From positions 1 to 34,287 of the forward strand of contig WJLY01000154.1 of the NCBI GenBank assembly GCA_014728245.1: DNA of 34,287 nucleotides. The letters are read 5' to 3'. Position 1 is the first letter of the stretch, and each line of letters opens with the position of its first letter. Made by a program: the position numbers and the translations under genes. The notes below the pieces were generated by a model. That model saw nothing but the letters and a program-made list of their open reading frames with translations, had not been told where the DNA came from and searched no databases. Shown one piece after another: positions 13,812-31,464 of the stretch. Source of the stretch: Candidatus Effluviviaceae Genus IV sp. (GTDB taxonomy: Bacteria > Joyebacterota > Joyebacteria > Joyebacterales > Joyebacteraceae).

Positions 13812-13935
13812 ACGCCGGCGCCCGTTGTTCAACTGAGTAGATGTTCAGGTTGTCCAAAGGGGCGAATGTTACTGGCCGCATCGCCGTGCCGGGACGTGGG
13901 CTGCGATGGCGGAGTTCTCTTCATGGGGGGTCGAG

Positions 13936-16900
13936 ATGCCCAGAAGCATGTTCTCGGTTGTGATCATTCTGGCCGCGCTGGCGCTTGCGACAGGCGCCGC
14001 GGCCGCGGTAGATCCGCACGGAGGGATGCTCCGCTATCCCGACGTCAGCGCCACGCACATAGCCTTCCGTTACGCCAACGACATCTGGGTCGTGCCGAGA
14101 GAAGGAGGCACCGCGCTCCCTCTCTCGAGCCCTGAAGGCGGTGAGAGCTTTCCCAAGTTCAGTCCGGACGGCGAGACCATAGCGTTCATGGGGAACTACG
14201 ACGGCGTGCGGGACCTGTACACGGTGCCCGTTGAAGGGGGAGTCCCGTTCAGGGTCACGCATCACCCGGCGCAGGAGGTCATCTGCGACTGGACCCCTGA
14301 CGGGGACATTGTCTTCTACGCGTTCGGGATGGGCGATCATCCGCACTCCTACCAGCTCTTCCGCGTGCCGGCGGAAGGAGGGCTCCCGGAGCGATTGCCG
14401 GTGCCCTACGGCCTGAACGGCGCCATAAGCGACGACGGCGAGTGGCTGGCCTACAACCCGTTCAGCACCGATTTCTCCACCTGGAAGCGCTACGTGGGCG
14501 GAAGGGCGCCGGACGTGTGGCTCTTCAATCTGGAGGACAAGACCTCGCGCAAGCTCACCGAGTGGCTGGGAGCGGACTCGATCCCGATGTGGCACGGCGA
14601 CATGCTCTACTATCTCTCCGACGCCGGCCCGAGCCACCGTCTCAACATCTGGGCCTACGACGTCGACACGGGCGACAAGCGACAGATCACGAAGCACGGC
14701 GACTACGACGTCAAATGGCCATCGATCGGTCCTGGGAACAGGGGAGAGGGCGAGATCGTCTACCAGCTCGGGTCCGAGCTGCGCCTTCTCGATCTCGCTG
14801 ACGAGACCTCGCGCGTCGTGCGCGTGACGATCCCCGGCGACCGTCCGAAGATCAGACCGCACGCCGTCGACGCGTCGGAGTTCCTGGGCGACCGAGCGAT
14901 ATCCTCGACCGGGAAGCGCGTCGTCGTCTCGGCCCGGGGCGACATATGGACCCTCCCGGCGGAGAACGGATCGCCCCTGAACCTCACGCGCACCGACGGG
15001 GCGGCCGAGCGCGACCCCGTCTGGAGCCCGGACGGGAAGTGGATAGCTTTCTTTTCCGACGCCTCGGGCGAGTACGAGCTTCACATCATGCAGTCCGACG
15101 GGCGCGGGGAGGAGCGCCAGGCGACCGACCTGGAGCTGGGCTACCTCTTCAACCCGAGCTGGTCTCCCGATTCAGAGAAGATCGCCTTCCAGGATCAGCG
15201 CGGCGTGCTGCACGTCCACGACGTGGAGAGCGGCCGGACGGAAGAGATCTGGGAGAGCCCGGTCGGCAGGTTCGGCTACGGCGTGAGCTGGTCGCACGAC
15301 TCCAACTGGATCACGTTCTCGGACAACGCCGACGTGAGAGGACGGAGCGTAGCGTGGCTCTACGACGTCGCGAACGACGAGATGCACCAGCTGACGAGCG
15401 GGATGTACGCCGTCACCTGGCCCACGTTCGACCGTGAGGGCAAGTACATCTACTACGCGAGCAACAGCGACTTCTCCAGTCCGTCCTACAGCGACGTCGG
15501 AGAGAACTGGTCGTACCCGAACACCGACCGCCTCTACGCGGTCACGCTTCAGGACACGCTCGACTCGCCGTTCCTCGCGGAGGTAGACGAGGAGGAATGG
15601 GAAGAGGAGGAGGAAAGCGAGGACGCGGAGGGAGACGCCGCCGGTGACGACGCCGCGGATTCGGAGGACGCCGAGGACGGTGACGACGCGGAGGACGGTG
15701 ACGAAGAAGAGGAGCCGCTCCGCATCGACACAGAGGGCTTCGAGCGGCGCGCGATGCTACTCCCGATCGAGCGCGGCGCCTTCTACAACCTCGAGGTGAA
15801 CGCCGACGGGAAGCTCCTGTACGTCCGGCGACCCGACCGCTGGTCGGCCGACGAGGCCGGCATCTACCTGGCCGACCTGGACGAAGAGGACGAGATGGAG
15901 AAGGAGGTGCTCTCCGGCGCCGGCGGCTTCTCGATGTCGGGCGACGGCAACAAGATACTGGCAGCGGGCCGGATGGGCATGGCCATAGTGGACGCCGCGG
16001 CCGGCCAGAGCTGGGAGAAGACCGTGTCTACGCGCGGCATGACCACCGAGATAGACCCGGCCGAGGAGTGGGCGCAGATACTCCGCGACGCGTGGCGTCT
16101 CTACCGCGACTTCTTCTACGCGGAGAACATGCACGGGGTCGACTGGGACGGCGTCTATCGCAGGTACGAGAAGATGCTCCCCGACTGCGCCTCGCGCACG
16201 GACCTCACGCACATCATCCGCGAGATGATCGCGGAGCTGAACGTCGGCCACGCGTACTACTTCGGAGGAGACTACGAGGAAGCCCCTACCATCTCCGTCG
16301 GTCTTCTGGGCTGCGATTTTGAGCTCGCGAACGGCGCCTACCGGATCTCTAAGATCTATGACGGCGCCGACTGGGACGCGGATGCCAGGGGCCCGCTCGT
16401 CGAGCAGGGCGTCGACGTCGAGGAAGGTGACTACCTGCTGGCCGTAAACGGCGTGCCTGTCGACACGGCCGAGGACCCGTGGGCCGCCTTCCAGGGGATG
16501 GCCGGTAGCACCGTGACACTGACCGTGAGCGATGGGCCCGAGATCGACGAGGACGCGCGATACGTTCCGGTCGAGCTCATAGGCAGCGAGCGCGAACTGA
16601 GATACCGTGATTGGATCGAGGGTCGAAGAGCGTACGTGGAGGAGAAGACCGGCGGGAGGGTCGGCTACATCTACGTTCCCGACACCGGGCTGCGCGGTCA
16701 GAACGAGCTCGTGCGCCAGTTCCACGGCCAGTACGACAGCGAGGCGCTGATCGTCGACGAGCGCTGGAACGGGGGCGGACAGATCCCGACGCGGTTCGTC
16801 GAGCTTCTGAACAGGAGGCTCGCCAGCTACTACGCGATGCGCCACATGGACGACCTGGCGCCTACCCCGCGCGCCGCCCACTTCGGCCCGAAATGCATGA

Positions 16901-17286
16901 TCATCAACGAGTCGGCGGGCTCCGGCGGCGACTACTTCCCTTACTGGTTCAAGGAGGCGGGCGTCGGCAAGCTCGTGGGCACGCGCACCTGGGGCGGGCT
17001 CGTGGGCCTTTCGGGTAACCCGGGCCTGATCGACGGCGGGTACGTCTCGGTGCCCAGATTCGCGTTCGTCAACAAGGACGGAACCTGGGGCATCGAGGGC
17101 CACGGGGTCGATCCCGACATCGAGGTGGTCGACGACCCCGCCCTCATGTGGGACGGGGGAGACCCGCAGCTCGACGCCGCCATCGACATCATGCTGGATG
17201 AGCTCGAAGCGGGCGGGTACGAGCCGCCGAAGCGGCCCGAGTATCCCGACAGGAGCGGCATGGGCATCCCTATGGAGGAACGCTAG
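13936..17286 (+). CDS. Exported tricorn-type S41 peptidase
   Basis: This is a 1116-residue serine peptidase resembling archaeal and bacterial tricorn protease, with an N-terminal signal peptide (to about residue 24, ending ATGAAAAV), so it probably works in the periplasm or outside. In order: WD/TolB-like propeller repeats (about 30-540, many SPDG or SPDS units), a very acidic stretch (about 549-594), a second shorter propeller part, a helical section, a PDZ-like domain (about 800-880), and an S41 core. Aligned to Thermoplasma tricorn (S745, H746, S965, E1023), H772, S996 and E1054 are present with matching spacing, but S745 is glycine here. Other markers are KLVGTRTWGGLVG and GHGVDPDIEV. The ATG at 13936 is chosen because the signal peptide follows directly; upstream in-frame starts are less likely. 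A terminator follows. Confidence 0.92.
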   Translation: MPRSMFSVVIILAALALATGAAAAVDPHGGMLRYPDVSATHIAFRYANDIWVVPREGGTALPLSSPEGGESFPKFSPDGETIAFMGNYDGVRDLYTVPVEGGVPFRVTHHPAQEVICDWTPDGDIVFYAFGMGDHPHSYQLFRVPAEGGLPERLPVPYGLNGAISDDGEWLAYNPFSTDFSTWKRYVGGRAPDVWLFNLEDKTSRKLTEWLGADSIPMWHGDMLYYLSDAGPSHRLNIWAYDVDTGDKRQITKHGDYDVKWPSIGPGNRGEGEIVYQLGSELRLLDLADETSRVVRVTIPGDRPKIRPHAVDASEFLGDRAISSTGKRVVVSARGDIWTLPAENGSPLNLTRTDGAAERDPVWSPDGKWIAFFSDASGEYELHIMQSDGRGEERQATDLELGYLFNPSWSPDSEKIAFQDQRGVLHVHDVESGRTEEIWESPVGRFGYGVSWSHDSNWITFSDNADVRGRSVAWLYDVANDEMHQLTSGMYAVTWPTFDREGKYIYYASNSDFSSPSYSDVGENWSYPNTDRLYAVTLQDTLDSPFLAEVDEEEWEEEEESEDAEGDAAGDDAADSEDAEDGDDAEDGDEEEEPLRIDTEGFERRAMLLPIERGAFYNLEVNADGKLLYVRRPDRWSADEAGIYLADLDEEDEMEKEVLSGAGGFSMSGDGNKILAAGRMGMAIVDAAAGQSWEKTVSTRGMTTEIDPAEEWAQILRDAWRLYRDFFYAENMHGVDWDGVYRRYEKMLPDCASRTDLTHIIREMIAELNVGHAYYFGGDYEEAPTISVGLLGCDFELANGAYRISKIYDGADWDADARGPLVEQGVDVEEGDYLLAVNGVPVDTAEDPWAAFQGMAGSTVTLTVSDGPEIDEDARYVPVELIGSERELRYRDWIEGRRAYVEEKTGGRVGYIYVPDTGLRGQNELVRQFHGQYDSEALIVDERWNGGGQIPTRFVELLNRRLASYYAMRHMDDLAPTPRAAHFGPKCMIINESAGSGGDYFPYWFKEAGVGKLVGTRTWGGLVGLSGNPGLIDGGYVSVPRFAFVNKDGTWGIEGHGVDPDIEVVDDPALMWDGGDPQLDAAIDIMLDELEAGGYEPPKRPEYPDRSGMGIPMEER

Positions 17287-17631: not shown

Positions 17632-18387
17632 ATGCCAGTAGATCTCGAGAAGATACTGAGGCCGATCGACCGGCCCATGGCGCCGTATCCTCCCAAGCAC
17701 GTGACGCTGGCGAGCGGCGACGACATGGTCGTTCGCCAGGTCGGCAGGGACGACATTCCGAAGATACTCCCTCACGTCGCGCCGCTCATGTACGTCGAAC
17801 GCGACTTCTACGACTGCGTGGCGGCAAGGGTCTACGCTGAGCTGCTTGCTTACTACAGGCACCGGGTGCAGGATGAGTACGTGCTGATCGCGCAGGTGGA
17901 CGGCGAGCTGTGCGCGATCGTCAACGGCAGAATGGTCGACGAGAAGGTCGGCATGTCGCTTCACACTCTGGCGCTCAGGCGCGGGCTCAGGATCGGAGCG
18001 CACGCGTTCGCGGCCAAAATGGAATACCACATGGACATCCTGGGTCAGGAGGAAGTGCTCGTCGTTGCGGAGTCGCCGATCGGTTTCCGCAGGTGGATGA
18101 TAGAGTACGACCTCGAGAAGCGCTTCGATATTCCGCACGAGCTCGGGGGAGTGCCCTCCTACGCCCTCACGCGGGAGCTGTTCGAGCGGGCGCGGGGGAC
18201 CCTCGTGATCGGCAGAAGACCCGTTCCCGAAGCTCTCCTTTCGAAGGCGATGGAGGAGATACTGCCGCCCTCCGATCCGCCCCGGCCGCCTGACGACCTA
18301 CTCGCAGCGACGCGGTCGCAGTACGATCCCACCGGCACGGCCCTCATGCTCCAGAGATGGGTGGAGGAAGGGAAGGTGAAGGCATGA
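17632..18387 (+). CDS. Uncharacterised GNAT-like protein
   Basis: This is a 251-residue cytoplasmic protein that I do not recognise as a named family. The arrangement suggests an acyltransferase-like (GNAT) fold: VVRQVGRDDIPKILPHV near residue 30, a strand at DEYVLIAQVDGELCAIVNGR, then LHTLALRRGLRIGAHAFAAKMEYH, and VLVVAESPIGFRRWMI. This resembles the beta4-alpha3-beta5 region, but no clear acetyl-CoA loop (R/QxxGxG/A) can be pointed to. The C-terminal third is Pro-rich. AAGGAG lies seven bases before the ATG. Its last four bases overlap the start of the thiolase-like gene (ATGA), so the two are translationally coupled and probably work together, perhaps in acyl-CoA chemistry. Confidence 0.75.
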   Translation: MPVDLEKILRPIDRPMAPYPPKHVTLASGDDMVVRQVGRDDIPKILPHVAPLMYVERDFYDCVAARVYAELLAYYRHRVQDEYVLIAQVDGELCAIVNGRMVDEKVGMSLHTLALRRGLRIGAHAFAAKMEYHMDILGQEEVLVVAESPIGFRRWMIEYDLEKRFDIPHELGGVPSYALTRELFERARGTLVIGRRPVPEALLSKAMEEILPPSDPPRPPDDLLAATRSQYDPTGTALMLQRWVEEGKVKA

Positions 18388-19556
18388 GAGAAGTATACGT
18401 TGCGGGAATCGGGATCACATCGTTCTCGCGTCTCGAGTTCCCGCTCTCGGAGATAGCGGCATACCCGGTGATGATGGCGATGAAGGACTCGGGCCTCAAG
18501 GACATCGAGCATCTTTATGTCGCCAACATGGGAGGCGGCAGGGTCAATCATCAGACGGGCCTCGCCAGCGCCGTCGCGGATACCCTCAGCCTGACGCCCT
18601 CCGGCGCGGAGCTGATCGAGAACGGGCCGGCGTCGGGTGGCTCGGCCGTCAAGCAGGGGTTCATGGCGGTCGCCTCCGGAATGCACAACGTGGTGGCCGT
18701 AACAGGGGCCGAACGCATGCGCGAGGTCAACAACCTCGAGGCGACCGACCTCGTTGCGACGCTTACCCACCCGATCGCCGAATACATCTACGGGGTGACG
18801 CTCCCGTCGCTGGCCGGCATGTTCACGCGGCTCTACATGGACAGGTACGGAGTGACCGACCGTCATCTGGCGATGGTCGCGGTGAAGAACCAGAGACACG
18901 CCCTCCGGAACGAGTTCGCTCACATTCAGCAGGAGATCACCGTCGAGGGCATACTTGACTCGCCGGAGGCCATGACGAATAACCCCTACGTCGCTGCCCC
19001 CTTGAGGTTCTTCGACTGCTGCCCGGTCTCCGACGGCGGAGCCGCCGTGATACTCACGTCGAGGGAGGTAGCGGAGGCGACAGGCAGGCCGCTCGTGCGC
19101 CTCTCCGGAGTGGGACAGGCCAGCGACACTCACTGCGTGCACGAGCGCGAGGACCCGACGGAGCTTCTGGCCGTGAGGCGGGCGGCCGCCGGCGCGATGG
19201 AGATGGCGGGTGTCGAACCGTCCGACGTGGACGTTGCCGAGCTTCACGACGCGTTCACCATCCTCGAGATAGTCGAGAGCGAGGAGGCGGGGTTCTTTCC
19301 CAAAGGCGAGGGCCACCTGGCGCTCGAGCGGGGCGACACCGAGCTGGGTGGCCGACTTCCGATCAACGTGTCCGGAGGACTCAAGGGAAGAGGTCACCCC
19401 GTCGGCGCCACCGGCATCGCGCAGGTGTACGAGATCGCGCATCAACTGCGCGGCGAGGCCGGGGACAGGCAGGTCGAAGGCGCGCGAGTCGGATTCACGT
19501 GCAACTTCGGCGGGTTCGGGAACAACGTCGTTTGCATGGTGCTGGCTGGAGAGTGA
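18384..19556 (+). CDS. Thiolase-fold protein (SCP2/archaeal type) lacking the nucleophilic cysteine
   Basis: This is a 390-residue member of the thiolase superfamily, closest in layout to archaeal acetyl-CoA acetyltransferase/SCP2-type proteins, which form complexes with DUF35 proteins. VAGIGITSFSR opens the chain. The usual ENACASG nucleophile motif reads ENGPASGG, with proline at residue 82 where the catalytic Cys should be. H288 in ELHDAF and H338 in GRGHPVGATG are kept, and the C-terminus has CNFGGFGNNVVC (373-384). Without the cysteine it should not form the usual acyl-enzyme; it may decarboxylate, bind an acyl-CoA, or act as a structural partner. It overlaps the preceding gene by 4 bp and is followed by a DUF35 gene. 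Confidence 0.88.
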   Translation: MREVYVAGIGITSFSRLEFPLSEIAAYPVMMAMKDSGLKDIEHLYVANMGGGRVNHQTGLASAVADTLSLTPSGAELIENGPASGGSAVKQGFMAVASGMHNVVAVTGAERMREVNNLEATDLVATLTHPIAEYIYGVTLPSLAGMFTRLYMDRYGVTDRHLAMVAVKNQRHALRNEFAHIQQEITVEGILDSPEAMTNNPYVAAPLRFFDCCPVSDGGAAVILTSREVAEATGRPLVRLSGVGQASDTHCVHEREDPTELLAVRRAAAGAMEMAGVEPSDVDVAELHDAFTILEIVESEEAGFFPKGEGHLALERGDTELGGRLPINVSGGLKGRGHPVGATGIAQVYEIAHQLRGEAGDRQVEGARVGFTCNFGGFGNNVVCMVLAGE

Positions 19557-19679
19557 TCGTCGGCCGACACACCGGGCCGCTCGGGAAGTACCCGGAGACC
19601 GGGCATCGGGATGCTCGGGGGCCGCTCACAGACCGTTCTTCGGCCGCTCGTAGAGCACTCAGAGACCGAAGAGGATGAT

Positions 19680-20027
19680 ATGAAGAGAGAGATCTACGCG
19701 TACAGATGTCGCAGGTGCGGCGAGCTTCACTACCCGTACAGGATGGTCTGCAGGAAATGCCGCGAGAACGACCACAACGAGTTCGACCCGGAGCCGCTTC
19801 CGAGAGAGGGAATCCTCGTGACCCATACCGACCTCTACGCGCTGCCCGCCGTGTTCGAAATCCGAAAGCTCGGACTTGGAATCGTGGAGCTTTCCAACGG
19901 TGTCCGCATCACCGGGCAGCTCCGGGTGGAGGAGCCGAAGATCGGAATGAAGGTGCGAGGAGAGGTCGAGGTCGTCAGGAGCGAGATGTACAGCGACTAC
20001 TATGGAATGGTCTTCTACGAAGCTTGA
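19680..20027 (+). CDS. DUF35 zinc-ribbon/OB-fold protein
   Basis: This is a 115-residue protein with an N-terminal zinc ribbon (C10-x2-C13 and C24-x2-C27) and a C-terminal OB-fold. DUF35 proteins bind acyl-CoA and bridge thiolase and HMG-CoA synthase in the archaeal complex, and often sit next to SCP2-type thiolases, exactly as here. This protein is therefore the likely partner of the preceding thiolase-like protein. The ATG at 19680 has GAGG five bases upstream; longer versions would add a leader unlike the family. A 123-bp gap separates it from the thiolase gene. It contains no hairpin that I recognise, only three GGCCGCTC-like and AGACCG-like repeats. Confidence 0.92.
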   Translation: MKREIYAYRCRRCGELHYPYRMVCRKCRENDHNEFDPEPLPREGILVTHTDLYALPAVFEIRKLGLGIVELSNGVRITGQLRVEEPKIGMKVRGEVEVVRSEMYSDYYGMVFYEA

Positions 20028-20038
20028 TGGGAGAAGCC

Positions 20039-20085
20039 GCGTCGCGATTGCGCGCCTGACGGGAGTAGATGCGTCGCGATTGCGC
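20039..20085 (+). repeat. 15-bp direct repeat upstream of the DUF2877 gene
   Basis: GCGTCGCGATTGCGC occurs twice, at 20039-20053 and 20071-20085, with copies beginning 32 bp apart, in the 93-bp gap between the DUF35 and DUF2877 genes. A spacing of about three helical turns would suit a regulator binding two sites on one face, but this may be chance. Confidence 0.5.
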
Positions 20086-20120
20086 TACGCGCGCTCTCGA
20101 CGAAGGAGGAGAGGCCGGGC

Positions 20121-21104
20121 TTGCGGTCTGAGAGGAACGACGTTCGACACGGGCGAGGGAGAGCCCAGGCCTCACCGGCGGTCGATGGGCCTCTTCGCCT
20201 GGTGAGCCGGGGCGACATGATCGCCGACGGGCTGTACCGGACGCACTCGAGTTTCCGGCGGGCCGCGAACATGACTGACGGCCGGGGCGTTGTCTCGATG
20301 GTAGAACTCGGAGTGGAACCCGGTCCCGTCAATCTCGTCATGAGGCATCTGAGTCCCGGAACCGTGCGTACGCTCCGGGTCGACGGCGCCTCGATCATCG
20401 TGAACGGAGCGGCGGTTGCCACGCAAGGCGCCCGTGACTACTCCTCGAAGATGGACGTCGGCGCGACAGACCCGGAGCCGGTTCACCGCGGGCTCCGGAT
20501 GCTTCGAAGACTATTGGCTCAGCGCGCGCCCGCTGAGAGCCTCGCGTTTCTCGTCGAGCCGTCACGGACGTCGGCGTTCAGGGGCGGGTTCCGGCGGGAG
20601 TTTGTGCGGCACATGAGGGCCTGTGCTGACGATATTCTGCACGGCGACCCGTTCCGCGGAGCAGCGCGCGCGAGCGGTTGCGGATTCGGGCTGACTCCGT
20701 CCGGTGACGACCTCGTGGTAGGCGTGCTTGTGGCGATGAACCTGGCGGAGCGCGTCGCCGGCGGCAGCCTTGCGGTCGAGAGACGGATGATCCGCCGGGC
20801 CGCCGGCACCGGAGGGCTCGTCAACGAGACCGCCCTTTGCCTAGCCGAGAGCGGCCGGGTGTTCGAGACCATGAAGGAGCTTCTGAGGGCGCTGACGAGG
20901 GACAACGCCTTCGATCTCAGTCGCGCCGTGGACCGTATCGTCGCCGTTGGAGAAACATCCGGCGCGGACACGACCGTCGGCCTCCTGCTTGGGACGGAGC
21001 GCTGGCTCTTCCGTCGTAACCGCCCGCGCGGGCTGCCGGGTCGTGACCGGCGCAATGGTGTCAAGAGCGACGCGGACCGCGCCGCCTGGGGAGAGTTCCT
21101 GTGA
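20121..21104 (+). CDS. DUF2877 (AllH-like) subunit of an oxamate-type carbamoyltransferase
   Basis: This is a 327-residue DUF2877 protein. The hallmark FGLTPSGDDLVVGVLVAMN and a C-terminal TSGADTTVGLLLG segment are present. In E. coli, AllH (DUF2877), AllF (FdrA) and AllG (DUF1116) are together needed for oxamate carbamoyltransferase, which converts oxalurate and phosphate to oxamate and carbamoyl phosphate during anaerobic allantoin use. The TTG start at 20121 has AGGAGGA ten bases upstream. A GTG at 20202 would give about 300 residues, nearer to E. coli AllH, so the N-terminus is uncertain. The gene overlaps fdrA by 4 bp. The Arg-rich C-terminal tail is not typical of the family. Confidence 0.88.
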   Translation: MRSERNDVRHGRGRAQASPAVDGPLRLVSRGDMIADGLYRTHSSFRRAANMTDGRGVVSMVELGVEPGPVNLVMRHLSPGTVRTLRVDGASIIVNGAAVATQGARDYSSKMDVGATDPEPVHRGLRMLRRLLAQRAPAESLAFLVEPSRTSAFRGGFRREFVRHMRACADDILHGDPFRGAARASGCGFGLTPSGDDLVVGVLVAMNLAERVAGGSLAVERRMIRRAAGTGGLVNETALCLAESGRVFETMKELLRALTRDNAFDLSRAVDRIVAVGETSGADTTVGLLLGTERWLFRRNRPRGLPGRDRRNGVKSDADRAAWGEFL

Positions 21105-22648
21105 TCCTGAAGACGGTTATCAGAAGCGGGGCGTACGCCGACTCGGTCACGCTGATGAAGGCCGCGCGCGAGCTCTCGGGCATGCCGGGCGTGGACGACG
21201 CGGCCGTCATCATGGGGACCGAAGAGAACAAGGCAATCCTGAGGGCGTCCGGTCTCCTCGATGAGTCCCTCGAGTCGGCGGGGCCGACCGACATGCTCGT
21301 GGCGGTTCGGGCGGCGGACGGTGAAGCGGCCGCGGGCGCCCTGTCGGCGGTAGACGAGCTCCTGACGGGCCAGCGCGGAGGCCCGGACAGAGAGAGCTCC
21401 CGCGCGCCCAGGAGCCTCGAGACCGCCCTCGCCGCTCATCCGGAGCTCAACCTGGCGCTGATCTCGGTGGCGGGCCGGTATGCGGGCGGCCTGGCGTGGG
21501 AGGCCCTCGAGAGGGACCTTCACGTAATGATCTTCTCGGACAACGTGCCCCTCGAAACGGAAGTCGCGCTCAAGCGGGAAGCGCACGAGAAAGGGCTGAT
21601 CGTGATGGGTCCGGACTGCGGCACAGCCATCGTGAACGGCGCGCCGCTCGGATTCGCCAACGTCGTATCGCGCGGGCCTGTCGGAATAGTGGCCGCGTCG
21701 GGAACCGGTCTTCAGGAGGTGAGCTGCCTTCTCTCCGAGAGCGGGGCCGGTATCTCACAGGCCATAGGCACAGGCAGTCGGGACGTGTCGGACGACGTGG
21801 GGGGTATCACGTTTCTCGACGCCATTGATGCGCTGGGCTGCGACGCTGACACTCAGGTGATCGTCCTGGTGTCGAAGCCGCCCGACCCGTCCGTTCACGA
21901 GAGGATACGGCGGGCCACCGGTGCGCTGGACAAGCCCGTCGTGTCGGTATTCCTGGGAACGGAGCCCGAGGGGCCCTACGACGCACGAACCCTGGCGGAA
22001 GCGGCGGCGAAGGCCTCGGACGTCGCGCTGGGGGGCGAGGCGGGGGCAGATTCGGGACGCGGAACGCTCTCTCGGCCGAAAGCGGACGAGAGGCGAGAAC
22101 GCGCCCGCGGGCTGGCTTCATCGGTCTCGGCCGGACGCAGATACTTGAGAGCGCTCATGAGCGGCGGCACGTTCGCGTCGGAGGCCGCGCTTGTATTGGG
22201 CGACATGGAGATCCCTGACCTGTGCGCCAACGTGAGGGGCGGTGGGGCAGCTCGGCTGGAGGACCCCCTCCGCTCCGTTGGGAACGCAGTCGTCGACATG
22301 GGCGCGGACGAGTTCACCGTCGGACGGCCGCATCCGATGATCGATTACTCGCTCCGTGTTGCGCGGATCGCGGAGGAAGCTAGAGATCCGCAGACCGCGG
22401 TCGTGCTTCTCGATGTCGTGCTCGGCTACGGGGCCCACCGCGATCCGGCCTCCGAGCTGGAGGGCGTTGTGCGCGATGTGTCATCCCGGGTCTGTGTTGT
22501 ATGCTCGGTCACCGGGACCGAGCGCGACCCGCAGGTCAGAAGCGTCGTCGAGAGACGACTGCGTAGTGCTGGAGCTTCCGTGATGCCCTCGAACGAAGCG
22601 GCGGCCGGGCTGGCGGGAGAAGTCGTCCGGATGCTGGGAGAACGCTGA
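21101..22648 (+). CDS. fdrA: FdrA (AllF-like) acyl-CoA synthetase-fold protein
   Basis: This 515-residue protein has the succinyl-CoA-synthetase-like folds of the FdrA family and is the AllF-like component of the proposed carbamoyltransferase. The most conserved stretch is clear: MGPDCGTAIVNGAPLGFANVV, GIVAASGTGLQEVSCLL, then AIGTGSRDVSDDVGGITFLDAI. A later part carries LVSKPPDPSVHERI, and near the end VVLLDVVLGYGAHRDPASEL, another FdrA hallmark. An Arg/Ala-rich linker (around residues 315-340) separates the two halves. The GTG start overlaps the DUF2877 stop (GTGA), and the stop shares one base with the DUF1116 start, so the three genes are translationally coupled. Confidence 0.93.
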   Translation: MILKTVIRSGAYADSVTLMKAARELSGMPGVDDAAVIMGTEENKAILRASGLLDESLESAGPTDMLVAVRAADGEAAAGALSAVDELLTGQRGGPDRESSRAPRSLETALAAHPELNLALISVAGRYAGGLAWEALERDLHVMIFSDNVPLETEVALKREAHEKGLIVMGPDCGTAIVNGAPLGFANVVSRGPVGIVAASGTGLQEVSCLLSESGAGISQAIGTGSRDVSDDVGGITFLDAIDALGCDADTQVIVLVSKPPDPSVHERIRRATGALDKPVVSVFLGTEPEGPYDARTLAEAAAKASDVALGGEAGADSGRGTLSRPKADERRERARGLASSVSAGRRYLRALMSGGTFASEAALVLGDMEIPDLCANVRGGGAARLEDPLRSVGNAVVDMGADEFTVGRPHPMIDYSLRVARIAEEARDPQTAVVLLDVVLGYGAHRDPASELEGVVRDVSSRVCVVCSVTGTERDPQVRSVVERRLRSAGASVMPSNEAAAGLAGEVVRMLGER

Positions 22649-24063
22649 TGTCGCTGAAGGACCTCTTCGGATCCGATCTAGGGGTCGTGAACGTCGGACT
22701 TGAGGCTTTTACTGAAGGGCTCGAGGCCGCCGGCGCGGCCCACGTGCACATGGACTGGCGTCCTCCGATCGACGTGTCCGCCGAGTCCCGGAGGACCATC
22801 AGCGAGAGGGCCGGCGTGATAGAAGAGGCGAATCGAAAGGCCGTCGGGATCATCATGCAGGCCGCTCCCGCTGTCGTCGCAACGGGAAGGGCGCTCGACG
22901 CGATACCCGGCATGCGAGAGGATCTCTTCCTGCACGCGGGGCCGCCGGTGGAATGGGAACGTATGTGCGGGCCGATGCGAGGGGCGGTCATCGGCGGGCT
23001 GATCTACGAGGGAAGAGCGGACACTGCTGAGGAGGCGGAGAGGCTGGCTGAGACGGGCCGGATCAGGTTCGAGCCCTGCCACGAGCACGGGACGGTGGGC
23101 CCGATGGCGGGCGTCGTCACGCCATCGATGCCCGTCTTCATCGTGAGGAACGAGGCGTTCGGTAACGAGGCTTATTGCACGATGAACGAGGGACTCGGCA
23201 AGGTGCTGCGCTACGGGGCCTTCGCGCCGGAGGTAATGGAACGACTGAACTGGATGCGCGACGTTCTGCACCCCGTGCTGGATGGAGCGATAAGGGCGAC
23301 GGGCGCGATCGACCTGAAGAACATCATTGCCCAAGCGCTGCACATGGGAGACGAGGTGCACAACCGCAACCGGGCGGCCACCTCCCTTCTGTACAGGGCC
23401 CTGGCGCCGGCCGTCGTGAGTACCTGCAGCGATCGATCGGAGGCGGCTCGGGTCCTCGAGTTCATCGACGGGAACGACCACTTCTTCCTCAATCTCTCGA
23501 TGCCGGCTTGCAAGGCGTCTCTCGACCCGGCCCGGGGCATCGAGGGGAGCAGCCTGGTCGTCGTGATGACCAGGAACGGGACCGACTTCGGTGTGCAGCT
23601 CTCAGGGACCGGCGACGAATGGTTCACGGGGCCGGCCGACGTCCCGGATGCTCTCTTCTTCCCCGGATATACACGGGACGACGCCAATCCCGACATCGGC
23701 GACAGCTCGATAACGGAGACCGCGGGTCTGGGCGGCTTCGCGATAGCCGCATCTCCGGCCATCGTCCAGTTCGTCGGCGGGACGACGAGCGACGCCATCG
23801 ACTACACGCTGGAGATGTACGAGATCACCGTCACGGAGAACGACGCGTACCAGATTCCCTATCTGGACTTCAGGGGCACACCGACGGGCATAGACGTCGT
23901 CAAGGTCGTGGAGAAGAACATACTCCCGTTCATAGACACGGGCGTGGCCCACAGAGAACCGGGCGTCGGTCAGGTCGGCGCGGGGGTCCTCCGGGCATCG
24001 TTACAGCCGTTCGTCGGCGCGTACGAGGGACTGGCCGAGCGCCTGAAGGCGGCGGGCGGCTGA
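22648..24063 (+). CDS. DUF1116 (AllG/YlbE-like) protein
   Basis: This is a 471-residue DUF1116 protein, the third part of the AllFGH-like set. The core GPMAGVVTPSMPVFIVRNEA with GNEAYCTMNEGLGKVLRYGAF is typical, as is the helix with DLKNIIAQALHMGDEVHNRN. With FdrA and DUF2877 it is expected to catalyse phosphorolysis or synthesis of an N-carbamoyl amide in the cytoplasm. Carbamoyl phosphate would normally then be used by a carbamate kinase to make ATP; no such gene is in the window. The ATG overlaps the fdrA stop (TGATG). The last residues are Ala/Gly-rich. The next gene starts 161 bp later, and nothing convincing was seen in that gap. Confidence 0.92.
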   Translation: MSLKDLFGSDLGVVNVGLEAFTEGLEAAGAAHVHMDWRPPIDVSAESRRTISERAGVIEEANRKAVGIIMQAAPAVVATGRALDAIPGMREDLFLHAGPPVEWERMCGPMRGAVIGGLIYEGRADTAEEAERLAETGRIRFEPCHEHGTVGPMAGVVTPSMPVFIVRNEAFGNEAYCTMNEGLGKVLRYGAFAPEVMERLNWMRDVLHPVLDGAIRATGAIDLKNIIAQALHMGDEVHNRNRAATSLLYRALAPAVVSTCSDRSEAARVLEFIDGNDHFFLNLSMPACKASLDPARGIEGSSLVVVMTRNGTDFGVQLSGTGDEWFTGPADVPDALFFPGYTRDDANPDIGDSSITETAGLGGFAIAASPAIVQFVGGTTSDAIDYTLEMYEITVTENDAYQIPYLDFRGTPTGIDVVKVVEKNILPFIDTGVAHREPGVGQVGAGVLRASLQPFVGAYEGLAERLKAAGG

Positions 24064-24224
24064 GTCAGGCATACGAGAAAGGCGGGAAGCCGGGCAGCGT
24101 ACCAGGAGGCGAGCCGCGGATCGCGCAACCGGACGCGAGCGCGAGCCGCGCGGAAGCGGGCCTGCCGTGGCGCTGCCGGGAGAACCAGGTCAAGTAGCTT
24201 CGCTCTCCAGAGCCGGAGGTGGGT

Positions 24225-25043
24225 ATGAAGATAGAGAAGTTCCTCGAGTTCATGAACGAAATAAGGATGTACGATCTTACGCAGAGACTCTCGATACACA
24301 CACCCCCGTGGCCCAGCTACATGCCGATGGGATTGCAGTACTTCAAGCGAATCGCGGGAGCCCACATGGGCCAGGGCGCCAACGGTCAGATCATGACCAC
24401 GAGCAACCACGTCGGGACGCACATGGACGGTGAGATACACTTCCACGGGAGCGGGCGCTCGATCGGAGACGTTCCCCTCGACGAGTGGGTCGGTCCGGGC
24501 GTCGTAGTGGACATATCCGACGCCGTGGAGGACTACGGCCTCTACTCTCCGGAGATGATAGAGGACCGCGTGGAGGTCCGTGACGGCGACATTCTTATCA
24601 TCAACACCGGTTATCACAAGTACGCTTGGGACCAGAAGCGCTGCGACGAGGTCCGATACTTCGTCAAGCACCCGGGCCCGGGCCCCGAGTTCCACAAGTG
24701 GGCGCTGAAGAGAAAGCTCAACTGGATAGGCGTCGACTGCGGCAGCGCGGACCATCCGATGAACACGATCATCCGCGACTGGCACCCGGCGCTCTTCGAG
24801 AAAGCCGAGGCGAAGCTCCGGAGCGAACGCGGCAAGAGCTGGGACGAGGTCTTCCCGCCGGAGACCTACTACCAGGTGATGCACCTGAAGCTCTTCCCTA
24901 AGAAGATCGTGCACGCGGAGAACCTCGGAGGGGAGATCGATAAGGTGGGCAACAAGAGGTGCTGGATAGGGTGCTTCCCTCTTCGGGGCATAGAGCTCGA
25001 ATCGTCGATGTGCCGCATCGTGGCGATGCTTCCGCCGGAGTAG
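24225..25043 (+). CDS. Cyclase-family (kynurenine formamidase-like) metal-dependent hydrolase
   Basis: This 272-residue member of the cyclase family belongs to the group that includes kynurenine formamidase and isatin hydrolase, Mn/Zn enzymes that hydrolyse amide bonds, often in rings. The metal motif HxGTHxD is present as NHVGTHMDGEIHF, followed by a second histidine cluster. DLTQRLSIHTPPWPSY opens the fold, GVDCGSADHPMNT lies near the middle, and HAENLGGEIDKVGNKR near the end. The ATG at 24225 is preferred because GGAGGTG (24215-24221) precedes it; the GTG at 24219 lies inside that ribosome-binding site. Its place between the DUF1116 gene and a molybdenum hydroxylase suggests that it opens a ring produced by the hydroxylase. 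The substrate is not known. Confidence 0.9.
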   Translation: MKIEKFLEFMNEIRMYDLTQRLSIHTPPWPSYMPMGLQYFKRIAGAHMGQGANGQIMTTSNHVGTHMDGEIHFHGSGRSIGDVPLDEWVGPGVVVDISDAVEDYGLYSPEMIEDRVEVRDGDILIINTGYHKYAWDQKRCDEVRYFVKHPGPGPEFHKWALKRKLNWIGVDCGSADHPMNTIIRDWHPALFEKAEAKLRSERGKSWDEVFPPETYYQVMHLKLFPKKIVHAENLGGEIDKVGNKRCWIGCFPLRGIELESSMCRIVAMLPPE

Positions 25044-25200
25044 CGCATCCGGAGGACGAAGCCGCAAGGGGAACCACGCGGCCGCCCGAACGACCGAAGT
25101 CGCGGGCGCACGGCGTCGCCGGTCACAAGACTACCGACGCGGTCCCTGTTCCCCGATTGGGCCGCGGGGCGGATGCAAGCCGTTCGATGAAGGAGCCGCC

Positions 25201-26091
25201 ATGTCGATACCGCACGAGTTCGACTACACGAGACCTGGGTCGTTGAGCGAGGCGCTGGCCGTTCTGGGCGAATCCGGCGCGGACGCTCGCCCGCTGGCCG
25301 GCGGCACCGATCTCCTGCCGCGTCTCCGCGACGGCCTCGAGCATCCCTCCGTGCTCGTCGACCTCAAGGCGATACGGGAGCTGGCAGGCATAAGAGCGGA
25401 AGAAGACGCGGTCACTCTGGGCGCGCTGGCGACCTTCACGGACCTCGTAGAGTCACAGGAAGTGGCCGATTCGCTCCCTGTCATGGTAGAGATGGCGCGC
25501 TTGATGGGTTCCGTAGGGATCCGCAACCGTGCCACGATCGTGGGGAACATCTGCTCGGGCGTCCCGTCCTGCGACAGCGGTCCGGTGCTGCTGGTCTGCG
25601 ACGCGCGCGTTCACGTGGCTGGACCCGAGGGAGCGCGCGAGATCCCGCTCTCGGAGTGGTTCGTGGCGCCGCGGAGCACGTCGCTCGGACGGTCCGAGAT
25701 CGTGACAGGTGTTTCTCTTCAACGGCCGGGACCGGGCCACGGGGGGTGCTTCGTCAAGCTGAGGCGTAGCAGCGGCGAGGATCTGGCCCAGGCTTCGGTC
25801 GCGGCGCTGGCGCTCCCCGACGGCTCGTACCGCGTGGCCTTCGGCGCCGTGGCGCCGACGCCGGTGAGGGCCGGGAGGATCGAGGAGGCGCTGCGCGGCC
25901 GCGCGATCGATGGTGACGCTCTTGTGGAAGTCCGCGGACTCGTGTCCGAGGAGACATCGCCCATCTGCGACATCCGCGCGAGTCGGGAGTACCGGGAGCA
26001 CATGCTGCCCGTGATGCTCGAACGAGCTCTGCTGGCCGCCGCGTCGAGGCGCGACGGCGAGGGCCCACCGTACGGCGAGGCGCTGCTGTAG
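25201..26091 (+). CDS. Molybdenum hydroxylase FAD-binding subunit (CoxM/XdhB type)
   Basis: This is the 296-residue FAD subunit of a xanthine dehydrogenase-family enzyme. It passes electrons from the iron-sulfur subunit to its acceptor. FAD-binding features include PLAGGTDLLPRLRDG (about 35-49) and RNRATIVGNICSGVPSCDSGPVLL (about 107-130), the latter matching the usual RNxxTIGGN...AD.xP pattern, with Cys-Asp in place of Ala-Asp. The C-terminal CO dehydrogenase flavoprotein domain follows. AAGGAG lies five bases before the ATG. It is the first of three genes in the order M-S-L and is separated from the cyclase gene by 157 bp in which I see nothing definite. Confidence 0.93.
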   Translation: MSIPHEFDYTRPGSLSEALAVLGESGADARPLAGGTDLLPRLRDGLEHPSVLVDLKAIRELAGIRAEEDAVTLGALATFTDLVESQEVADSLPVMVEMARLMGSVGIRNRATIVGNICSGVPSCDSGPVLLVCDARVHVAGPEGAREIPLSEWFVAPRSTSLGRSEIVTGVSLQRPGPGHGGCFVKLRRSSGEDLAQASVAALALPDGSYRVAFGAVAPTPVRAGRIEEALRGRAIDGDALVEVRGLVSEETSPICDIRASREYREHMLPVMLERALLAAASRRDGEGPPYGEALL

Positions 26092-26103
26092 GAGATCTGT
26101 GTC

Positions 26104-26583
26104 ATGGCCAGAGAGATCACGCTCAACGTGAACGGCGAGGAGTGGACCGTCTCGGTTGCACCGAACGAGACGCTGCTGGAGGTGCTTCGCGATCGCATCG
26201 GCTTGAAGAGCCCCAAGATCGGGTGCGAGCGCGGGGACTGCGGCAGCTGTACGGTAATACTCGACGGCAGGACCGTGAGGAGTTGCCTGGTTCTGGCCGT
26301 CGAGGCCGACGGGGCGGGCGTTCTTACGGTGGAAGGCCTTTCGAGAGACGGCCTTACCGAGCTACAGCAGTCGTTCATTGACCACAATTCGTTCCAGTGC
26401 GGGTTCTGTGCTCCCGGGATCATCCTGACCGCGTCGGAGCTTCTTGCGAAGAACCCTCATCCGACGGAGCACGAGGTGAAGGAGGCGCTCGCCGGGAATC
26501 TCTGCCGATGCACTGGTTACACACCCATCGTGGAGGCCGTGCTCGACGTAGCGGGCAGGCGGAAGGCGGATGACGATGGCTGA
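26104..26583 (+). CDS. Molybdenum hydroxylase 2Fe-2S subunit (CoxS/XdhC type)
   Basis: This 159-residue small subunit carries two [2Fe-2S] clusters. The plant-ferredoxin-type cluster uses C41, C46, C49 and C61 (motif GCERGDCGSC). The second uses C99, C102, C134 and C136 (QCGFC and NLCRC). All eight ligands are present, so electron transfer from the molybdenum centre to FAD should be intact. GGAG lies eleven bases or so before the ATG. It follows the FAD subunit by 12 bp and overlaps the large subunit by 14 bp, so the stoichiometric complex is made from one transcript. Confidence 0.96.
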   Translation: MAREITLNVNGEEWTVSVAPNETLLEVLRDRIGLKSPKIGCERGDCGSCTVILDGRTVRSCLVLAVEADGAGVLTVEGLSRDGLTELQQSFIDHNSFQCGFCAPGIILTASELLAKNPHPTEHEVKEALAGNLCRCTGYTPIVEAVLDVAGRRKADDDG

Positions 26584-28960
26584 TCTCAAGCGCGCGGAGA
26601 AACCCGATCTCAAGTACGTCGGAAGATCCGCCACTCGAATCGACGGCGTTCCCAAGGTCTCCGGAAGCGCGACGTTCGTGGACGACATCGACTTCGGCCC
26701 GGGTCTCCTGCACGCGGCGGTCGTGGAGAGCCCGCACGCCCATGCTCGTATTCTCTCGATAGACAAGAGCGAGGCGGAGGCTCTTCCCGGCGTCGTCCGC
26801 GTCGTCACCGGCGAGGACTTCCCGTTCAGGTTCGGGCTCTACATGAAGGATCGCCACATCTTCGCGATGGACAGAGTCAGGTTCGTCGGCGAGCAGGTGG
26901 CGGCCGTCGTGGCGCGGGATCGGAGGACGGCGGAACGCGCCGCGGCGCTTGTAAGGGTCGATTATGATGAGCTGCCGGCGCTCTTCGACCCGGAGGAGGC
27001 GGTGGGAGAGAGGTCGTGTCTCCTGCATCCCGACATGTGCGAGTGCGAGCGAGTGCCCTGGTTCTTCCCGGAGGAGGGGACCAACGTAGCGCACTGCCGG
27101 AGAACGCGGAGGGGCGACGTGGAGGCGGGTTTCCAGGAAGCCGACATCGTGCTCGAGGACACCTACCGCGTGCCCCGTTACTCGCACTGCGCGATCGAGC
27201 CGCACGTGGTCGTGGGGCTGCATGACCACTCCGGAAGGCTCACGCTCTGGTCCGCTTCCCAGTCGCCTCATACTCAGCGGAACCTCTTCGCGGAGACGCT
27301 GGCCCCGCTGGGCCTGACCCACAAGGACATACGCGTGGTCACACCGTTCGTCGGCGGGGGGTTCGGCGGCAAGGCCGGCGTCACGATGGAGATACTGGGG
27401 GCGGCGCTCGCGATGGCCGTCAAGGGACGGCCGGTCAAGCTCCGCTGGACCCGCGAGCAGGAGTTCTACAACACGTACCAGCGCCAGGCCGTGGTGGCGC
27501 GTCTCAAGATCGGAGCGCGCAATGACGGCACGCTGACCGCGATCGAGCACACCCTCTACTGGGACGCCGGCGCCTACGTCGAATACGGCGCGAACGTCGT
27601 GAACGCCGTCGGGCTCTCCGCCACCGGACCGTACAGGGTACCGAACGTCAAGATCGACTCGTTCTGCATATACACCAACCTGCCCCCGGGCGGGCCCTAC
27701 AGAGGTTTCGGCTACTCCGAGTTCCACTTCGGACTCGAGTCCCACATGACCCGGATCGCGCACGAACTGGGCATCGACGCGGTCGAGTTTCGCAAGCGGA
27801 ACGCCATCGCCGAGGGCGACACGCTACCGTACGGGGCATCCATGAACCCCAGCGGACTAGTGGAGGCGATAGACAGGGCCGCGGAGGCTATCGGGTGGGG
27901 CGAACCTGGCGAGCCAACGGACTCCGGGAAGGTCGTTGGCAAGGGTGTGGCGCTCATGTGGAAAGCGCCCGCCATGCCTCCCAACGCGAGCTCGGCCGCG
28001 TTCCTCAAGTTCAGCGAGGACGGAAGCGTCAACATCACAGTCTCGGGGATGGAGATAGGGCAGGGGTACCTGACAGTGATGGCTCAGATAGCGGCCGAGG
28101 TCCTGTCGGTTCCGCCCGAGAGAATCCGTGTCGAGACGCCCGACACGGACCGCACTCCCTACGAGTGGCAGACGGTCGGTTCGCACGTTACGTGGGGCTG
28201 CGGGAACGCCGTCCGCGACGCGGCCCTCGAGGCGCGCGAGAGGATCTTCGGAGTGGTGCATCGAGCAAGGGGATTCCCCGTCGACTCGCTCTACCTGGAG
28301 AATGAGGAGGTCAGGAGCCACGACGACCCGGGATTCGGGCTTGCCCTTCGTAACTTCGTGATCTCCGGAATACAGATGGACGACGGGACGTTCCGCGGCG
28401 GCCCGATCATGGGGAGCGGGATGTTCATGCCGGAGTTCACCTCGGCGCTCTCCGATCCGGACACCAGCCAGGGCGGCCATCCCAACGTGCACTACACTGT
28501 CGGAGCGGCCGGGATCGTGCTCGAGGTCGACCCGGAGACCGGCAAGATGCAGGTTCTGAGGACCGCACTGGCAGTGGATGTAGGCAAGGCCATAAACCCG
28601 GATCTCGTGGAGGGCCAGATCAAAGGCGGTCTCCTCCAGGGGCTGGCTACCGTCCTGTATGAGGACATGCGCTTCGACGAGCGAGGCCGGCTCTTGAATC
28701 CCAACTTCACGGACTACAAGATCCCCACAGCCATGGACGTCCCGCTTGAGACGATCCCCATCATAATCGAGGTGCCGCAGCCGGACGGTCCCTTCGGCGC
28801 AAGGGGCGTCGGAGAGCACACGATGATCCCGGCGGCGCCGATGGTGGCTAACGCTCTCGAGGATGCACTGGGTGTCCGCATCAAGTCGATGCCGATCACG
28901 GCCGAGAAGGTCGCGCTGGCAGTCCGTGAGTCCAGGTCGGGGCGGGTTGACAACGCGTAG
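26570..28960 (+). CDS. Molybdenum hydroxylase large (Mo-cofactor) subunit, xanthine dehydrogenase family
   Basis: This 796-residue catalytic subunit hydroxylates a C-H bond next to nitrogen in a heterocycle or aldehyde, with water as the oxygen source. An aldehyde oxidase/xanthine dehydrogenase a/b hammerhead domain (about 15-125) is followed by Mo-binding domains with GGGFGGK (262-268), PYRGFGYSE (about 379-387), EIGQGYLTVMAQIAAEVL (about 496-513), and the catalytic glutamate E749 in GARGVGEHTM. The CO-dehydrogenase loop AYRCSFR is absent, so it is not a CO dehydrogenase despite the Cox-like gene order. Two close starts exist, ATG at 26570 and ATG at 26576; either fits. It overlaps the 2Fe-2S gene. 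The substrate is unknown; purine, pyrimidine and nicotinate-type rings are possible. Confidence 0.93.
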   Translation: MTMADLKRAEKPDLKYVGRSATRIDGVPKVSGSATFVDDIDFGPGLLHAAVVESPHAHARILSIDKSEAEALPGVVRVVTGEDFPFRFGLYMKDRHIFAMDRVRFVGEQVAAVVARDRRTAERAAALVRVDYDELPALFDPEEAVGERSCLLHPDMCECERVPWFFPEEGTNVAHCRRTRRGDVEAGFQEADIVLEDTYRVPRYSHCAIEPHVVVGLHDHSGRLTLWSASQSPHTQRNLFAETLAPLGLTHKDIRVVTPFVGGGFGGKAGVTMEILGAALAMAVKGRPVKLRWTREQEFYNTYQRQAVVARLKIGARNDGTLTAIEHTLYWDAGAYVEYGANVVNAVGLSATGPYRVPNVKIDSFCIYTNLPPGGPYRGFGYSEFHFGLESHMTRIAHELGIDAVEFRKRNAIAEGDTLPYGASMNPSGLVEAIDRAAEAIGWGEPGEPTDSGKVVGKGVALMWKAPAMPPNASSAAFLKFSEDGSVNITVSGMEIGQGYLTVMAQIAAEVLSVPPERIRVETPDTDRTPYEWQTVGSHVTWGCGNAVRDAALEARERIFGVVHRARGFPVDSLYLENEEVRSHDDPGFGLALRNFVISGIQMDDGTFRGGPIMGSGMFMPEFTSALSDPDTSQGGHPNVHYTVGAAGIVLEVDPETGKMQVLRTALAVDVGKAINPDLVEGQIKGGLLQGLATVLYEDMRFDERGRLLNPNFTDYKIPTAMDVPLETIPIIIEVPQPDGPFGARGVGEHTMIPAAPMVANALEDALGVRIKSMPITAEKVALAVRESRSGRVDNA

Positions 28961-31280: not shown

Positions 31281-31434
31281 GATCGCACGCTCCTTCACGG
31301 CGGGACGGCTCGGTCGACTTGCGACCGACAGGTCCGACAGCGCCATCGCTTCATGAGGGATTCCGGCGGAGTTCGACGCTGCGCGTCTCTCGGCGGTGGC
31401 GACGAGGCCTTGGTTTTTGGCAGGTAACGCAGTT

Positions 31435-31464
31435 ATAGTACAACAACTGACCGGCATTCGTCAA
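31435..31464 (-). promoter_or_regulatory. Sigma-70-like promoter of the GEVED-protein gene
   Basis: On the minus strand, TTGACG (31464-31459) is followed after 18 bp by TACTAT (31440-31435). This predicts a leader of about 150 nt before the start at 31280. An alternative -10, TATAAC (31437-31432), would have 21-bp spacing. Confidence 0.45.

Follow-up and report, generated by a model that had tools for sequence, protein, structure and literature searches.

A thiolase-fold subfamily with proline in place of the catalytic cysteine, encoded in a putative pyrimidine-catabolism operon

Gene content of the locus

The window (the whole 34,287-nucleotide stretch of DNA that was analysed) carries an operon that extends from 17632 to 28960, with all of its genes on one strand (Table 1). 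The order is a GNAT-like gene, a thiolase-fold gene which we term Pro-type, a DUF35 gene, homologues of AllH, FdrA and AllG, a PF04199 cyclase, and the FAD, FeS and Mo subunits of a Mo hydroxylase. The Pro-type thiolase frame is open, begins with an ATG at 18384, encodes a 390 aa product and overlaps the upstream GNAT-like ORF by 4 bp. Thiolase_N and Thiolase_C_1 both score above their Pfam cut-offs, and these N- and C-terminal domains together with the fold place the protein in the thiolase superfamily, within the SCP2/archaeal DUF35-linked branch. None of the NCBIfam thiolase models listed passes its cut-off for this protein, the best being NF004720 (390.8 bits against 420). The FdrA, AllG and AllH homologues together constitute the gene set of an AllFGH-type transcarbamylase, and the Mo subunit belongs to the XDH family and carries its GVGE and RGFG motifs.

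Table 1. Features of the operon and of the Pro-type motif, in window coordinates
Feature	Position	Strand	Evidence or remark
Likely GNAT-fold protein (251 aa), upstream neighbour of the Pro-type thiolase	17632..18387	+	AlphaFold model match
Pro-type thiolase-fold protein (390 aa)	18384..19556	+	Thiolase_N + Thiolase_C_1, Pro82 motif
ENGPASGG motif, residues 79-86, Pro82 at the nucleophile position	18618..18641	+	ENGPASG invariant, 41 distinct sequences
Stand-alone DUF35 protein (zinc ribbon CxxC...CxxC + OB fold), 115 aa	19680..20027	+	Pfam zf-ChsH2
AllH-like transcarbamylase subunit (exact start uncertain)	20121..21104	+	PF11392 72.7 bits, cut-off 25
FdrA/AllF-like subunit	21101..22648	+	NF004760 475.3 bits, cut-off 433
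AllG-like subunit	22648..24063	+	PF06545 337 bits
PF04199 cyclase/amidohydrolase, predicted ring-opening hydrolase	24219..25043	+	HVGTHMDGEIH metal motif at residue 64
FAD subunit of Mo hydroxylase	25201..26091	+	Profile match
[2Fe-2S] subunit of Mo hydroxylase	26104..26583	+	Profile match
Mo-binding subunit of Mo hydroxylase, XDH family	26570..28960	+	GVGE at residue 746

The initial annotation of this DNA had paired the thiolase with a DUF35 protein, and such an ORF indeed lies downstream: zf-ChsH2 is above cut-off, OB_ChsH2_C is sub-threshold, the closest solved relative is the DUF35 of 6ESQ, and the zinc-binding cysteines of the C4 ribbon are conserved among homologues. The upstream GNAT-like protein has no match in Pfam or NCBIfam and no significant sequence match in the PDB. 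Its AlphaFold model (pLDDT 78) matches mainly GNAT acetyltransferases at low TM, the best being PatZ (E 3.9e-5, TM 0.43), making a GNAT fold likely, a statement that concerns fold and not activity. Lacking any family model, the protein is nonetheless conserved about as well as the thiolase, at 66-81% identity across phyla and 53% in locus L084. Just upstream of the operon, 13906-17286 reads as a 1126-aa candidate tricorn-protease homologue (beta-propeller, PDZ, peptidase), and a DUF7901/GEVED protein with a type IX secretion-like C-terminal tail (29079-31457, minus strand) converges on the operon's end.

A conserved proline at the nucleophile position

The nucleophilic Cys of the CxSG motif, which marks a catalytic thiolase (EC 2.3.1.9/16), is absent from the Pro-type protein, and Pro is found in all members. 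The alignment column of Pro82 holds Cys in 7YVY, in 6ESQ and in five canonical paralogues from the organism's own phylum, so that the initial reading of Pro82 in ENGPASGG as a replacement of the catalytic Cys was correct, as was its claim that the histidines H288 and H338 are kept. The former sits in HDAFT and the latter in GHPVGATG, and both are invariant among aligned members. Among solved structures, those closest to it in sequence are 7YVY, a thiolase from Pyrococcus, 4YZO, a thiolase-like protein from Sulfolobus, and 6ESQ, an archaeal acetoacetyl-CoA thiolase.

ENGPASG recurs in 41 distinct homologues; these are 51-84% identical and represent about 14 phylum-level groups. Orthologues from the same phylum (relatives named Candidatus Eisenbacteria) have it wherever the motif is covered. 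Our genome-contig scan returned 37 loci, those outside Eisenbacteria being 72-78% identical to the query, and all of them retain ENGPASG, HDAFTILEI and GHPxGATG where covered. The host groups are Bdellovibrionota, Verrucomicrobiota, Kiritimatiellota, Lentisphaerota, Acidimicrobiia, Neomarinimicrobiota, Zixibacteria, Ignavibacteria, Elusimicrobia, Acidobacteriota, KSB1, Riflebacteria and Planctomycetota; a search of plasmids gave only relatives of ≤45% identity. Pro82 is invariant in 26/26 aligned members, along with A290, the family-specific H129, and the HDAFTILE and GHPxGATG loops. ENGPASG persists in the 51% identical member from L084, and Pro82, H288 and H338 are unchanged down to that level of identity. 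Pro-type sequences made up one side of a branch in 100% of 200 bootstrap trees. Whether Pro at this position defines a subfamily was a check proposed at the outset, and the alignments and trees answer that it does: Pro-type thiolases form a monophyletic, Cys-independent subfamily. The second difference from canonical motifs, HDA for HDC, also occurs in the Cys-bearing 7YVY and is therefore not diagnostic by itself.

Two other accounts of the proline, that the protein is a true thiolase acting through another cysteine (C373 or C384) or that Pro82 is a sequencing error, had been named beforehand as what would overturn the reading, and we give them next to no weight. Judging from the motif, C373 falls in the part of the sequence where canonical thiolases carry their last catalytic Cys; however, T or V replaces it in 4/26 aligned members, which excludes it as a hidden nucleophile, and other members have S, V or A in place of C384. 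These substitutions rule out both residues. Over the 41 distinct sequences the Pro82 codon is CCG in 24, CCC in 10, CCT in 5 and CCA in 2; with all four Pro codons in use, the residue has been kept through synonymous changes and is neither a sequencing error nor chance. A decayed thiolase is likewise ruled out by conservation of Pro82 over 41 homologues in one clade. Separately, a few orthologues are broken, with frameshifts in L017 and L065 (G004) and with residues around 207-228 missing in L056 (G005), either as pseudogenes or through assembly error. The phylum also has a second thiolase, 40-44% identical, with a canonical CASG nucleophile (ETACASGG-type motif, with HDCF) and its own DUF35 (L018-L031, L078, L079).

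An AlphaFold model of the Pro-type thiolase, built with 25 family sequences, reached pLDDT 75.7 and pTM 0.83, with poor confidence at residues 71-80 and 113-139, beside the pocket. Foldseek grouped it with 7YVY (E 2e-34, TM 0.84), 4YZO and 6ESQ, with Ltp2 (6OK1, TM 0.78) and TbSLP lower down. On this model the thiolase fold is secure and the geometry of the pocket is not.

Genomic context and a predicted route for pyrimidine breakdown

In most genomes the GNAT-like, thiolase and DUF35 genes share an operon with the transcarbamylase, PF04199 and Mo hydroxylase genes. Verrucomicrobiota, Ignavibacteria, Lentisphaerota and Elusimicrobia are among the groups that show the gene order of the window, and the first three genes are adjacent in every locus whose available sequence reaches far enough. 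Where the operon is split, these first three genes stay together and the remainder lies elsewhere in the genome; the neighbours in the split operons of G041, G110 and G137 (a sugar transferase, an aminopeptidase, a nitrilase-type gene and the like) include no clear pathway gene, the only such neighbours being the dihydropyrimidinase-type genes of L088 and L096 described below. Among genomes picked for having the thiolase or the Mo subunit, and counting split operons, an AllG homologue accompanies the Pro-type gene in 23/24 and an XdhMo homologue in 24/24. The latter is at least 68% identical in 21 of them and just 38-43% identical in G021, G040 and G043. The unbiased tests of co-occurrence are two-way scans, whose Fisher p-values ignore phylogeny. 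Across 195 Verrucomicrobiota and allies, five genomes have the Pro-type gene, six the XdhMo orthologue and five both (Fisher p 2.7e-9, phylogeny ignored); across 198 Acidimicrobiia, the Pro-type gene is in seven, a barbiturase in six and both in six (p 9e-11, with the same reservation). Counting against a pathway link, G110 has the Mo hydroxylase and the cyclase, and the Pro-type thiolase was not detected there. Together, the link of the GNAT-like/thiolase/DUF35 trio to the pathway proposed below is well supported.

The identity of the ring-opening enzyme bears on what that pathway degrades. PF04199 cyclase genes are present in 20/22 genomes outside Acidimicrobiia, from the set picked for the thiolase or the Mo subunit, versus 0/9 Acidimicrobiia. 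In 8/9 Acidimicrobiia with the operon a PF09663 gene stands in the same operon in place of the cyclase, so that cyclase and barbiturase are complementary; the genome-wide barbiturase search covered Acidimicrobiia. This PF09663 protein matches the barbiturase structure 5HWE with E 5e-151, at 70% identity across the first 201 columns of the alignment; its best match among cyanuric acid hydrolases has E 5e-93. In place of the Arg188 of those hydrolases it carries Asn; barbiturases are reported to differ from them at this position, with the residue given as Gln. Counting against the pathway reading, barbiturase occurs in the operons of Acidimicrobiia alone, and the window carries the PF04199 gene in its stead, whose relationship to kynurenine formamidases is remote. 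Across phyla this gene keeps 70-84% identity, and its product has an HxGTHxD metal motif; we regard it as a candidate for a second, unrelated class of barbiturase.

The oxidative pyrimidine pathway uses a Mo enzyme to turn uracil into barbiturate, which fits the Mo hydroxylase encoded alongside. With the AllFGH and PF04199 genes, the Mo hydroxylase and the swap for barbiturase in Acidimicrobiia, the operon reads as one for oxidative pyrimidine catabolism. It is rather doubtful that it acts instead on some other ring, for instance cyanuric acid, a purine product or a different cyclic ureide, in which case the substrate of the trio would not be a malonyl compound. That idea draws on the NCBIfam name of the Acidimicrobiia PF09663 gene (cyanuric acid amidohydrolase), on the XDH-like Mo subunit and on the occurrence of AllFGH in purine (allantoin) breakdown (PMC11326118); however, the Acidimicrobiia hydrolase is far nearer to barbiturase and lacks Arg188, and cyanuric acid would need no hydroxylase.

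From the gene content we infer the direction and substrates of an oxidative pyrimidine pathway. The Mo hydroxylase would convert uracil to barbiturate, and the PF04199 hydrolase (barbiturase in Acidimicrobiia) would open the ring to ureidomalonate. In Escherichia coli, AllFGH cleaves the acylurea oxalurate into oxamate and carbamoyl phosphate (PMC11326118). Ureidomalonate is the homologue one step above oxalurate, so phosphorolysis by the AllFGH-type transcarbamylase is predicted to yield carbamoyl phosphate and malonamate. Carbamate kinase would then form ATP; a catabolic-type carbamate kinase is encoded in the same genome above the curated cut-off, as it is in only 2/14 control genomes. A nucleobase permease-family gene is also present, and dihydropyrimidinase-type genes adjoin the operons of a Bdellovibrionales member (L088:3446-4837) and of a Zixibacteria member (L096:6547-7932). 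What would be left is a C3 malonyl compound, and the trio comprises the only genes that have no assigned role, all with CoA-type folds, which makes it most likely that the trio converts the C3 unit, on the simplest reading through a CoA thioester. A search with PF05292 (malonyl-CoA decarboxylase) had no match in this genome, and none in the control genomes either, and is uninformative.

Chemistry of the Pro-type trio and its known relatives

In PhlC the acetyl group is held on Cys88 in an oxyanion hole formed by the main-chain NH of Cys88 and that of a Gly (PMC6392133). Transferring this geometry from known structures, Pro82 would remove the thiol and also the oxyanion-hole NH, and because Pro offers neither, covalent acyl-enzyme chemistry is excluded as far as sequence can show, in keeping with the original contention that a Cys acyl-enzyme is impossible here. 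The aligned sequences retain H288 and H338, the two histidines responsible for holding and polarising a thioester. Cys-less thiolase folds performing CoA-enolate chemistry are already known, among them the DUF35-bound retro-aldolases Ltp2 and Sal, the latter with Gly at the nucleophile position (PMC12329534). Widespread, strictly conserved and encoded beside genes that resemble a uracil-breakdown pathway, the Pro-type protein is probably no defunct thiolase but an enzyme with a different CoA chemistry. Its function is best approached through the GNAT-like partner and the operon, both of which the initial annotation had missed.

Ltp2 and Sal, as the nearest functionally known Cys-less, DUF35-bound thiolase folds (PMC12329534), raise the prospect of a retro-aldol or aldol CoA lyase that splits or makes a beta-hydroxyacyl-CoA and is tied to the pathway through a different intermediate. 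The fold match to Ltp2 and the Gly of Sal would agree with this. The Pro family is nevertheless not an Ltp2/Sal enzyme, because the catalytic Tyr of YDHF/YDCY is missing: the invariant HDAF has no Tyr of YDxF/YDxY and rules out membership. Moreover, the DUF35 protein is not fused to a MaoC hydratase, no hydratase lies within the operon, and the sequence is nearer to archaeal thiolases than to Ltp2, leaving aldolase chemistry quite improbable. It is also unlikely, if less plainly so, that the protein is a pseudoenzyme, a CoA-ester-binding scaffold which with DUF35 presents substrate to a catalytic GNAT-fold protein. Loss of both the nucleophile and the oxyanion-hole NH would suit a scaffold, as would the tight linkage to the GNAT-fold protein, and in PhlABC the chemistry is done by PhlC alone, PhlA being without its Cys (PMC6392133). 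Scaffolds rarely keep a whole pocket, however, and here both histidines, the HDAFTILE and GHPxGATG loops and His129 are invariant.

We therefore favour, with moderate confidence, a Cys-independent Pro-type subfamily which acts in complex with DUF35, and probably with the GNAT-like protein, in an oxidative pyrimidine-catabolism operon. A malonyl-type CoA thioester would be held between His288 and His338 of the Pro-type thiolase, which would stabilise the CoA enolate without an acyl-enzyme, most simply for decarboxylation to acetyl-CoA. The exact reaction is the least certain part of this proposal, and decarboxylation, which the initial annotation had suggested alongside a substrate-holding role, is offered tentatively: TbSLP decarboxylates malonyl-CoA at only 0.005 s-1, and CtSal, another Cys-less relative, does not decarboxylate it (PMC12329534). 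Put at its fullest, the proposal is of an ATP-yielding oxidative uracil pathway in about 14 phylum-level groups, with an AllFGH-type split of ureidomalonate, a three-part Cys-free enzyme that takes the C3 unit to acetyl-CoA, and PF04199 as second barbiturase; so complete a scheme is possible but speculative.

Conservation of Pro for Cys over 14 phylum-level groups, with the pocket kept, suggests that the thiolase fold has been recruited for non-covalent CoA chemistry beyond steroids. The operon gives the Pro-type thiolase a concrete and testable substrate class, and it points to functions for four families about which little is known (the GNAT-like protein, the PF04199 cyclase, AllFGH and the Pro-type thiolase itself). 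If true, this would be an energy-conserving route of pyrimidine breakdown in little-known bacteria.

Several known systems resemble parts of this one. The thiolase-like protein ST0096 of Sulfolobus tokodaii (4YZO) has the same fold, is also without the Cys (DNTSGSGG) and shares N80, S87, H180, R208, S299 and N380 with the Pro family, residues absent from canonical members; it has Ser at the Pro position, however, and HDMAT rather than HDAFT, and although it groups with the Pro clade at 99/98, its branch is long and the grouping unsure. The nearest Cys-bearing thiolases in sequence and fold, 7YVY and 6ESQ (an archaeal structure that joins acetoacetyl-CoA thiolase to DUF35 and HMG-CoA synthase), keep the CASG nucleophile; the Pro-type operon has no HMG-CoA synthase. 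The Ltp2/ChsH2-DUF35 and Sal/Shy-DUF35 steroid aldolases are likewise Cys-less, DUF35-bound thiolase folds acting on acyl-CoA substrates (PMC12329534), but their Tyr-based motif, hydratase partner and steroid context have no counterpart here, and their DUF35 comes from the steroid hydratase, whereas that of the Pro family stands alone in an operon without a MaoC gene. The Friedel-Crafts acylase PhlABC also combines a thiolase fold with DUF35 in a multicomponent complex; it needs Cys88 and its main-chain NH, neither of which Pro82 provides (PMC6392133). TbSLP, the SCP2-thiolase-like protein of Trypanosoma brucei (5AB4-5AB7), is Cys-less as well and binds malonyl-CoA (PMC12329534), but it has a YDCF motif, no DUF35 and about 22% identity to the Pro-type protein. 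With the oxidative pyrimidine pathway of barbiturase and ureidomalonase, the operon shares the Mo hydroxylase and, in Acidimicrobiia, the barbiturase; it differs in having a PF04199 hydrolase instead of barbiturase in most phyla, an AllFGH-type transcarbamylase instead of ureidomalonase, and the added GNAT/thiolase/DUF35 trio. A literature search, with most subscription papers outside its reach, returned no paper describing the Pro family or joining the genes of the operon. Cys-less thiolase folds are already known from Ltp2, Sal and TbSLP, and what is new is the Pro variant together with a testable pathway.
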